Assembly: GCF_003966655.1 (NCBI RefSeq)
Contig: NZ_AP018795.1
Coordinates: 1,144,001-1,208,000 of the forward strand
Reading direction: 5' to 3'
Length of the DNA stretch: 64,000 nt
Source of the DNA: Acidithiobacillus ferridurans
GTDB lineage: Bacteria; Pseudomonadota; Gammaproteobacteria; Acidithiobacillales; Acidithiobacillaceae
Position numbers and translations under genes: made by a program
Notes under the pieces: generated by a model
Database searches by the model: none
What the model was told of the DNA's origin: nothing
The model's input: only the letters and a program-made list of their open reading frames with translations
In this document: piece by piece, positions 41,966 to 43,705 of the stretch
Layout: every line of letters begins with the position of its first letter
How positions within the stretch are numbered: the stretch's first letter is position 1

Positions 41966-42823
41966 TCAGCCCGTCACCAAGTGCCCGGAAGCATCATGGT
42001 CGGCGGCGCTCATCAACTTGCGGTAACGGCTGAGATCCTTGATGCTTTGAATGGGCGTTTCGAGCAAAGCAGAAAGATTGCGCAAAATGCCGTTGACCAC
42101 CTTGCCCTCCCAGATCGCGTCGAAATGAATCTGGGTATCCAGCCATTGCTCCAGCCAACCCGGATCCGGCAGATGACTCTGCACGCTGTCCTCGGGATAC
42201 ATCGCCTTGTTCACATGGAGATTGGTAGGATGCAATGCCTTCGCCGTCTTGGTATTGGCCATGAGTACACCGATCTTCGCAAAAGCCAGACGCGCGCTGT
42301 CCCCGAGGCGATCAATAGCGCGCCGCATATATTTCAGATAAACACCGGCGTGCCGCGCCTCGTCCTTGGATAGCACCTCGTAAATCGAACGGATCACCGG
42401 CTCGCTATGCCACTGCGCCGCGCATTTGTACCAGTGTGTCAGGCGGATTTCGCCGCAAAAATGCAGCATAAGGGTTTCCATCGCCGGCGCCGGATCAAAT
42501 TCAAAGCGCACATTGTGCAATTCCTCTTCCGTCGGCAGATATTCCGGTGCGAAGCGGCGCAGGTATTCCATAAGCACCAGGGCGTGCTTCTGCTCTTCGT
42601 AGAACCAGATGGACATGAAGGCCGAGAAATCGGAGTCGCTCCGGTTGTCGCGGAGAAACATCTCCGTCGCCGGGAGTGCCGACCACTCGGTGACCGCATT
42701 CATCTTGATCGTGCGCAACTGCTCATCGCTGACCAGGCTACGGTCAAACTGCTCCCAAGGGATATCCGTGGCCATGTTCCAGCGCGCGGCCTCCAGCGAT
42801 TTGAACAACTCAGGGTATAACAT
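41966..42823 (-). CDS. Ferritin-like diiron protein, acyl-ACP desaturase-like
   Basis: A 285-residue protein starting at ATG 42823 (MLYPELFKSLE); the longer frame upstream to 43111 is rejected as unlike any protein. Metal-ligand motifs are ordered as in the type 2 fatty acid desaturase/ferritin-like fold: TEWSALPATEMF, FYEEQKHA (EExxH), CGEIRLTHWY and SKDEARHA (DExRH). Plant acyl-ACP desaturases use EENRHG and DEKRHE at the same places. It could desaturate acyl-ACP or oxidise another substrate. No membrane segment is seen. It is divergent from an HxlR regulator and a dyad covers its promoter. Confidence 0.72.
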   Translation of the reverse strand: MLYPELFKSLEAARWNMATDIPWEQFDRSLVSDEQLRTIKMNAVTEWSALPATEMFLRDNRSDSDFSAFMSIWFYEEQKHALVLMEYLRRFAPEYLPTEEELHNVRFEFDPAPAMETLMLHFCGEIRLTHWYKCAAQWHSEPVIRSIYEVLSKDEARHAGVYLKYMRRAIDRLGDSARLAFAKIGVLMANTKTAKALHPTNLHVNKAMYPEDSVQSHLPDPGWLEQWLDTQIHFDAIWEGKVVNGILRNLSALLETPIQSIKDLSRYRKLMSAADHDASGHLVTG

Positions 42824-42949
42824 GGCGAACCAACCTCTCTCATGGCGTTCTCGATAACGGGCGCCGGGGCACCTCGGCCCCCTTCCGCACAGCAGACGAA
42901 AGTCGCGCGCCGGCCCCCCACAAAGCCTTGTGACAACACCGTGAGGCTT

Positions 42950-42980
42950 CGTAAAATATATGCTTGGCATTTTACGACAA
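42950..42980 (-). promoter_or_regulatory. Promoter of the diiron gene with an overlapping perfect 8-bp dyad
   Basis: On the minus strand TTGTCG (42980-42975), 16 bases, TATTTT (42958-42953). A perfect inverted repeat CGTAAAAT (42950-42957) and ATTTTACG (42969-42976), 11 bases apart, covers the -10 and touches the -35. A dimeric winged-helix protein bound here would block the promoter; the divergent HxlR-type gene is the natural candidate. Confidence 0.55.
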
Positions 42981-43094
42981 ATCCCGGCATCGGGCGAATG
43001 ATGGACCATGTATGCCCGGGTACGCGCCAACGGTCCTGAAGTCCGGCCCGGATGAGCACCAGATTCCTGCTCGGCAAGCACGCCTTGCGACGCC

Positions 43095-43122
43095 TTGCAT
43101 TGGTTGTTCATAACGGGATAAT
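43095..43122 (+). promoter_or_regulatory. Candidate promoter of the HxlR-type regulator
   Basis: TTGCAT (43095-43100), a 16-base spacer and GATAAT (43117-43122), about 40 bases before the regulator ATG. It faces away from the diiron gene promoter. Confidence 0.5.
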
Positions 43123-43160
43123 GTTAGTATATTTTGTAGATCCGGTACGATTGAGTAACC

Positions 43161-43538
43161 ATGAACAGCCAAACCAAACAGGAAACGACTTGCCCCATGG
43201 ATGCATTGCTCCGCTTGCTGATGGGGCCGTGGACCACATACATCCTCTGGACGCTGAGACAACGCGGTCCCACCCGTTTCGGGATGCTCAAGCGGGAAGT
43301 GCACGGCATTTCGTCACGGATGCTGACGGAGCGTTTGCGCACCCTGGAGGAGGCCGGAGTGGTATTCAGGGTGTATCGTCCCAGCATTCCTCCAGAAGTG
43401 ACTTATGGCCTGACGCCGCGCGGACTGGAACTGCGGGAAGTGCTGGATGCACTGGATACCCTGGCCCGGCGCTGGAATAGCGAAGACGCTGGCAGGAAAA
43501 GCATCCACCGGGAATCGGCCCTGCCTGTTACCAATTAG
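43161..43538 (+). CDS. HxlR-family winged-helix transcriptional regulator
   Basis: A 125-residue regulator with the HxlR start CPMDALLRLLMGPWTTYILWTLRQRGPTRFGML, the recognition region ISSRMLTERLRTLEEAGVV and the wing YGLTPRGLELREVL. The N-terminal Cys11 is the position that senses quinones, aldehydes or oxidants in members such as YodB and HypR, so redox control is possible. It is divergent from the diiron protein gene and probably controls it through the dyad at 42950-42976. Confidence 0.85.
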   Translation: MNSQTKQETTCPMDALLRLLMGPWTTYILWTLRQRGPTRFGMLKREVHGISSRMLTERLRTLEEAGVVFRVYRPSIPPEVTYGLTPRGLELREVLDALDTLARRWNSEDAGRKSIHRESALPVTN

Positions 43539-43705
43539 CGGTTACCCGCACCCGCCCCGATCATTCGCCGGGATTTCCATGCTCAATCCGTAGGCGAACC
43601 TGGGTCCATGACGTGTCGCGGCACCTGCCTGCGCTGCGGATGACCTAGATTTATCCGGCCATTTGGGGCAGACTTCGCGGATATACTTCGTGTTACGCGG
43701 GATCT

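Follow-up and report, generated by a model that had tools for sequence, protein, structure and literature searches.

Probably neighbours by insertion: a divergent hxlR regulator gene and an old diiron oxidase gene in Acidithiobacillus ferridurans

When a regulator gene and an enzyme gene diverge from a shared intergenic region, and a perfect dyad lies over the promoter of the enzyme gene, are the two a regulator and its target? The question is raised by a locus in a 64,000-nucleotide stretch of the Acidithiobacillus ferridurans genome (the window, which is the whole stretch that we analysed). There, between ftsZ and aroQ as an earlier note on this DNA had it, an HxlR-family regulator gene and a gene for a diiron protein diverge from a 337-bp intergenic region. 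The note proposed a two-gene response unit: HxlR bound to the dyad would keep the diiron gene repressed until oxidants or reactive aldehydes released the regulator. The features that bear on this proposal, in window coordinates, are:

41966-42823, minus strand: diiron gene, 285 aa, for a presumed soluble diiron oxidase of the acyl-ACP desaturase fold
42949-42957, plus strand: second dyad arm, holding the -10 box (TAAAAT) of a promoter-like GTGACA-N16-TAAAAT (42930-42957)
42969-42977, minus strand: dyad arm with the -10 box TAAAAT of the diiron promoter; its core CGTANAAT is likely ancestral
42998-43636, no strand: segment of about 640 bp absent from sister genomes, carrying hxlR and its own promoter region
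43144-43160, plus strand: candidate HxlR operator GGTACGATTGAGTAACC, directly abutting the start codon of hxlR
43161-43538, plus strand: hxlR, 125 aa, for an HxlR-family regulator with a single cysteine, Cys11

Both genes are where the note placed them, hxlR with its Cys11 at 43161-43538 and the diiron gene on the minus strand. The long minus-strand ORF runs from 41966 to 43111, and the likely start within it is an internal ATG at 42823 with GAGAGAGG just 5’ of it. The 29 orthologues (the window's own included) align from this start, with the N-terminus MLYPELF or a near variant, which fixes the diiron protein at 285 aa. The orientation of the gene beside the dcw cluster has turned round between the window and a sister genus: in seven sister-genus loci (L019-L023, L025 and L026) ftsZ and the diiron gene share a strand, with the diiron gene second, and in the window they are convergent.

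The first evidence on the pairing comes from its distribution. Among 57 genomes searched, the window's own included, 29 carry the diiron gene: 16/17 in the genus, 11/12 in the rest of the family, 2/2 in the rest of the order, and 0/26 in the sample of the rest of the class. The 16 genus loci all have aroQ flanking the diiron gene, and in three of them (L001-L003, from genomes that are close relatives) hxlR lies between the two. Within the stretches compared, hxlR is beside the diiron gene in none of the 13 other loci of the order, so the pairing is not a conserved one. Since the 13 other genus loci are without hxlR here, a gain in the lineage of the window is simpler than repeated loss. The sister genomes show what was gained. 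A blastn comparison with five sister intergenic regions (L004-L008) matches the window from 42801 to 42997 (in L004 with a gap interrupting this block), and then again from 43637-43642 to 43730; a more distant locus, L009, aligns piecewise to the same two sides. In place of the roughly 640-bp segment, the sisters have 35-43 bp of their own unmatched sequence, which suggests a replacement rather than a clean insertion. The dyad is outside the segment, in the block on the diiron side, and the segment begins 20 bp beyond it. On present evidence, hxlR and the diiron gene would have become neighbours recently, without being built as a switch of two genes, and the pair would be an accident of insertion.

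The dyad, TCGTAAAAT-N11-ATTTTACGA at 42949-42977, is real and perfect, with 9-bp arms (42949-42957 and 42969-42977), each one base pair longer than the note had given. Its proposed position over both the -10 and the -35 of the diiron gene holds for one half: one arm is the -10, and the other is downstream of the -10. In the 2.92-Mb genome the dyad is the sole site with fewer than three mismatches, and a search allowing three mismatches returns 6 sites against 8 for the reversed control. When the 337-bp intergenic region is shuffled with its dinucleotides kept, 65 of 2000 sequences contain a perfect inverted repeat with arms of at least 9 and a spacer of 3-25, and the 64-kb window has 13 places of this kind, the dyad counted in. 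Given these frequencies, the dyad by itself is weak evidence.

The two arms appear to have different histories. The core CGTANAAT of the arm at 42969-42977 is found at the same place in 25 of the 29 orthologous upstream regions, its exact form missing in L024, L027, L028 and L029. A diiron promoter TCGCCC-N17-TA(A/C/G)AAT can be read in the three hxlR-bearing genomes and in five of the six hxlR-minus loci (L004-L008, not L009). This arm is likely, from the comparison, the ancestral -10 box of the diiron promoter. The promoter proposed in the note, TTGTCG-N16-TATTTT, has a score equal to that of this promoter, 8/12, in the three hxlR-bearing genomes, and neither of the two top-scoring sites in the six hxlR-minus loci corresponds to it. 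Only the three hxlR-bearing genomes have the second arm in perfect form (3/3, against 0/22 of the other boxed loci, where it reaches 3 to 6 of 8 partner matches). In the same three genomes it completes the promoter-like GTGACA-N16-TAAAAT with 10/12 consensus matches, and the best plus-strand site in the six loci without hxlR has 7-8 of 12. We infer that the dyad could be two antiparallel -10 boxes, the old one of the diiron gene and a lineage-specific one on the plus strand. This reading explains no less well than an operator why the second arm and hxlR occur together, and under it HxlR need not bind DNA that differs from its own conserved element. The three genomes are one lineage, so that the second arm and hxlR together count as one event. 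Directly downstream of the diiron promoter, at 42919-42945 on the minus strand, there is an inverted repeat of the GCGG/CCGC type, perhaps a leader hairpin, which by eye recurs in the sister genomes with altered sequence.

What, then, does this HxlR act on? The protein scores 75.6 bits against Pfam HxlR (cut-off 20.8) and matches the PDB HxlR structures 7bzd/7bze at E 4.8e-15. Its lone N-terminal cysteine sits in a CPMD motif, and this single Cys is found in 12/12 of the closest homologues, as in the one-Cys HxlR/DUF24 redox regulators, of which YodB, HypR/YybR and QsrR are examples. Matches to HxlR at E <= 1e-6 occur in 12/17 genus genomes. The closest homologues, 77-82% identical and from six sister genomes (L042-L047), are divergent from a gene for a WrbA-type NAD(P)H:quinone oxidoreductase, as is the homologue of L051 at about 67% identity; these neighbourhoods were taken from the upstream sequences, with the ORFs read for L042, L043, L047 and L051, and the WrbA ORF of L043 scores 347 bits with a cut-off of 141. 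Two homologues at about 62% (L048 and L049) are divergent from a gene that we take to be pirin-like, for which NCBIfam gives no match at E <= 1e-10. The single cysteine, together with the wrbA and pirin-like neighbours in sister genomes, supports the description of the regulator in the note as a one-Cys HxlR of the redox or quinone type. The likeness to such regulators (YodB, HypR/YybR, QsrR and RrpA/RrpB) consists in the HxlR domain, the lone N-terminal Cys, and relatives beside a quinone reductase gene. The differences are that the window protein scores far below the NCBIfam cut-offs for RrpA/RrpB, and that the conserved element at the start codon of its gene is not the dyad. In the genome of the window, a wrbA-like gene adjoins another HxlR paralogue (L053, near 2628074), where there is also a gene reading as pirin; this is likely a quinone-response cluster.

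The element at the start codon is a candidate operator. GGTA and GTAAC are kept just before the hxlR start codon in 12/12 of the closest homologues, whatever the neighbouring gene, which is the mark expected of an autoregulatory operator. The full element, GGTAC-N5-AGTAACC, goes with hxlR and not with the diiron gene, and the dyad arms CGTAAAAT/ATTTTACG bear no resemblance to it. The genome has one perfect copy, the one just before hxlR, together with one site at one mismatch (L142, inside an ORF as read from the sequence) and five at two mismatches; by strand there are 4 forward and 3 reverse sites, where the reversed control has 7 and 7. A wider regulon of HxlR on the chromosome was considered and rejected, this search having given no site of note other than that of hxlR.

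Taken together, we think it somewhat probable that two unrelated things stand side by side, an old diiron gene with its own promoter and an hxlR brought by the segment of about 640 bp. The diiron gene would be expressed from its ancestral promoter, whose -10 box makes one dyad arm. The segment, with the gene of a one-Cys repressor of the quinone or electrophile type whose close relatives are mostly divergent from wrbA, would have come to rest in this lineage between the aroQ and diiron promoters. HxlR would most likely repress itself through GGTAC-N5-AGTAACC at its start codon, and be released on modification of Cys11; the second dyad arm may provide extra transcription towards hxlR, or be simple drift. 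Two observations weigh against this account. The second arm is perfect in just those genomes that have hxlR at this place, a pattern to be expected of an operator gained together with the insertion, and variation is low around the dyad: an 85-column stretch, which extends beyond the dyad itself, has 2 variable columns in the three genomes, against 46/340 overall, and something in it may be under selection.

The same low variation agrees with the dyad being the site of another dimeric regulator, either a gain of the lineage or the replacement of an older site. G007 (locus L004), which has no hxlR here, carries an inverted repeat of its own, the different and shorter TACAAT-N6-ATTGTA, on the same -10 box, and this repeat amounts to 6/8 partner matches at spacer 6. 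With no second site in the genome within two mismatches, the regulator would have to be one with a single target, and equally long perfect repeats do arise among the shuffles at the frequency given above; we think this reading unlikely. The response unit of the earlier note is a poor prospect. The divergent layout, a one-Cys regulator, a perfect dyad over the diiron -10, and a second arm that is perfect in exactly the genomes with hxlR here (one lineage, and one event) are what such a unit would have. The dyad is, however, unlike the element conserved with hxlR, one of its arms is ancestral and present without hxlR, it has no further copy within two mismatches in the genome, and the regulator gene lies in a recently inserted segment. 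With hxlR missing from 13/16 genus loci and having an unlike element of its own, the unit finds no support, and control of the diiron gene by HxlR through the dyad, paired in 3/16 loci, is rejected as the leading view.

If the pair is probably accidental, what is the diiron protein? In sequence terms its class is faintly marked. It scores 26.5 bits against Pfam FA_desaturase_2 (PF03405; cut-off 22.7), a weak score over the cut-off, 29.0 bits against AurF (cut-off 29.6), and a weak 29.0 bits against EncFtn-like (cut-off 27). Across 50 homologues at E <= 0.01, FA_desaturase_2 is matched by 50/50, AurF by 50/50 and EncFtn-like by 40/50. In a PDB profile search the top match is DesA2 of M. tuberculosis (E 0.0042), level with a designed helix bundle (E 0.0043); the plant acyl-ACP desaturases come next at E 0.2-0.5, and EncC falls within that range at 0.34. 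An AlphaFold model made from 50 sequences has pLDDT 81.2 and pTM 0.83, with residues 204-219 and 280-285 below 50. For this model the ten best rows of VIA-align are all acyl-ACP desaturases, DesA2 included (Z 19.2 to 17.2; the best covers 237 residues at rmsd 3.3); R2-like oxidases follow at Z 17.0 and below, and RNR R2 at 16.0 and below. Absence from this list, as of the ferritins, is not counted as evidence. The first 19 rows of Foldseek are of the acyl-ACP desaturase class. The model thus has the desaturase fold over most of its length, and other members of the superfamily also reach Z 15-17.

The active site agrees with this class in part. The six ligands E46, E77, H80, E125, E155 and H158, in the order Glu, ExxH, Glu, ExxH, are invariant in 50/50 homologues, as are W15, W23 and D154. 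Three residues after the third Glu ligand, where by sequence offset the equivalent of castor Thr199 is expected (a Thr that we take to be a feature of the plant enzymes), all 50 have a leucine, L128. This Leu counts against strict desaturase chemistry, and we use the term desaturase-like rather than desaturase. In AurF an additional His ligand stands four residues ahead of the last Glu; at this place, position 151, four before E155, the family has Leu or Ile in 50/50. The ivy (2uw1), castor (1oq9/1afr), Thunbergia (7t63) and putative DesA2 (1za0) structures share the fold over residues of about 1-263 at Z 17-19. The likeness to soluble acyl-ACP desaturases extends to the four Glu and two His in two ExxH motifs, whereas the window protein is 11-15% identical to them, is shorter, and has Leu at E125+3. 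R2-like ligand-binding oxidases (Z 15-17) and AurF/CmlI/VlmB (VlmB at Z 16.1, AurF by the Pfam score just under its cut-off) have the same broad ferritin-like fold; the window protein differs in having no extra AurF His, and its structural match to them is somewhat weaker than to the desaturases. The class proposed in the earlier note, an enzyme like the acyl-ACP desaturases, is roughly right by structure match, Pfam and the six ligands. The protein is presumably, as modelled, a soluble, O2-dependent diiron oxidase of the acyl-ACP desaturase fold, and most likely it would act on an acyl chain, by desaturation or other oxidation of an acyl-ACP or of a lipid acyl group. Against an acyl substrate are the gap in Z to the R2-like oxidases of only about 2, the weak stretches of the model, the Leu in place of Thr199, and the presence of a membrane desaturase as well, with which a role in fatty acids is not forced.

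Could the protein have a particular place in unsaturated fatty acid synthesis? FabA (TIGR01749) scores over its cut-off in 0/27 Acidithiobacillales genomes and in 5/13 other class members, and a sixth (G033) falls just short at 221 of 238 bits. In 120 genomes of one order, presumably Burkholderiales, the diiron gene is present in 50 (in two, G330 and G352, only as fragments), FabA in 7 and the two together in none, a non-overlap with a hypergeometric P of 0.02 that ignores kinship; two families (f94 and f167) have FabA in some genomes and the diiron gene in others. A sample of four genomes from another order, too small to use, has the diiron gene in one and FabA in none. These counts are what one would see if a soluble O2-dependent acyl-ACP or acyl-lipid desaturase replaced FabA in Acidithiobacillales and much of Burkholderiales. 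But 63/120 genomes have neither gene, and a PF00487 membrane desaturase is over the cut-off in 26/27 Acidithiobacillales genomes, all but G001, and we regard the replacement as doubtful. On the same two counts the idea that unsaturated fatty acids are made through the diiron gene alone is weakened. The genome of the window encodes two PF00487 membrane desaturase-like proteins, of 374 aa (L148, 2854792-2855559) and 251 aa (L149, 2622825-2623445), the first of which scores 78 bits against DesA, where the cut-off is 500. An iron store or ferroxidase, ferritin-like or like the encapsulated ferritins, or an AurF-type N-oxygenase, to which the AurF and EncFtn-like scores in the window protein and its homologues and the EncC match would point, is improbable given the six-ligand pattern, the Leu or Ile in place of the AurF His, and best structural rows that are acyl-ACP desaturases across most of the length.

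The family itself is widespread. The diiron protein is 83-87% identical in a sister genus, where FtsZ is 79-81%. A scan of genome contigs with the alignment of the order finds at least 553 encoding stretches; among the 80 matches listed, 72 loci (L069-L140) are outside Acidithiobacillales, mostly in Burkholderiales or other betaproteobacteria, at 67-74% identity. In a wider sample of the class the gene is present in 10/276 genomes. By these comparisons the gene appears to be old and strongly conserved in Acidithiobacillales and many Burkholderiales. Near it in the 72 loci listed, which are not independent and for which we used a simple gene caller and family names from one representative each, are genes for a flavin amine oxidase (32), a CFA-type methyltransferase (22), DUF1365 (22), a CarH/LitR-like B12-binding MerR regulator (24, of which 21 directly upstream on the same strand), a glutathione peroxidase-like protein named from sequence (19), a photolyase-related protein (5), and UbiB (4; L098, L115, L127 and L138). 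A gene of one or more of five kinds (amine oxidase, CarH-like, CFA, DUF1365, photolyase-related) is near in 41/72 of these listed loci. The passages drawn on here describe cfa, photolyase and periplasmic glutathione peroxidase genes in a proposed Shewanella RpoE2 regulon (PMC4336711), and DUF1365 as the domain of UfaO, which uses O2 in making furan fatty acids in Rhodobacter (PMC7380195). The ChrR-controlled ufa genes of Rhodobacter (PMC7380195) and the Shewanella RpoE2 regulon (PMC4336711) resemble the Burkholderiales neighbours of the diiron gene, which may tie the protein loosely to acyl-lipid chemistry. The Acidithiobacillus diiron gene differs in being outside any such set of singlet-oxygen or light-related lipid genes. 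A diiron protein of this kind is not named in the passages concerned of either source, and in the text of PMC7380195 drawn on, ‘diiron’ occurs once, in a reference title. NCBIfam has no model that the window protein reaches at its cut-off and gives no match at E <= 1e-5 for a Burkholderiales member of the family, and a literature search that took in few of the subscription journals found no paper naming the protein.

The result corrects a tempting regulator-target reading, and the lesson is that a perfect dyad in a promoter can consist of one ancestral -10 box and a lineage-specific mirror copy of it. The part worth testing, more than the pairing, is the diiron oxidase family, deeply conserved and unnamed. 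If it is true that the diiron protein makes unsaturated acyl chains, this would help explain unsaturation without FabA.
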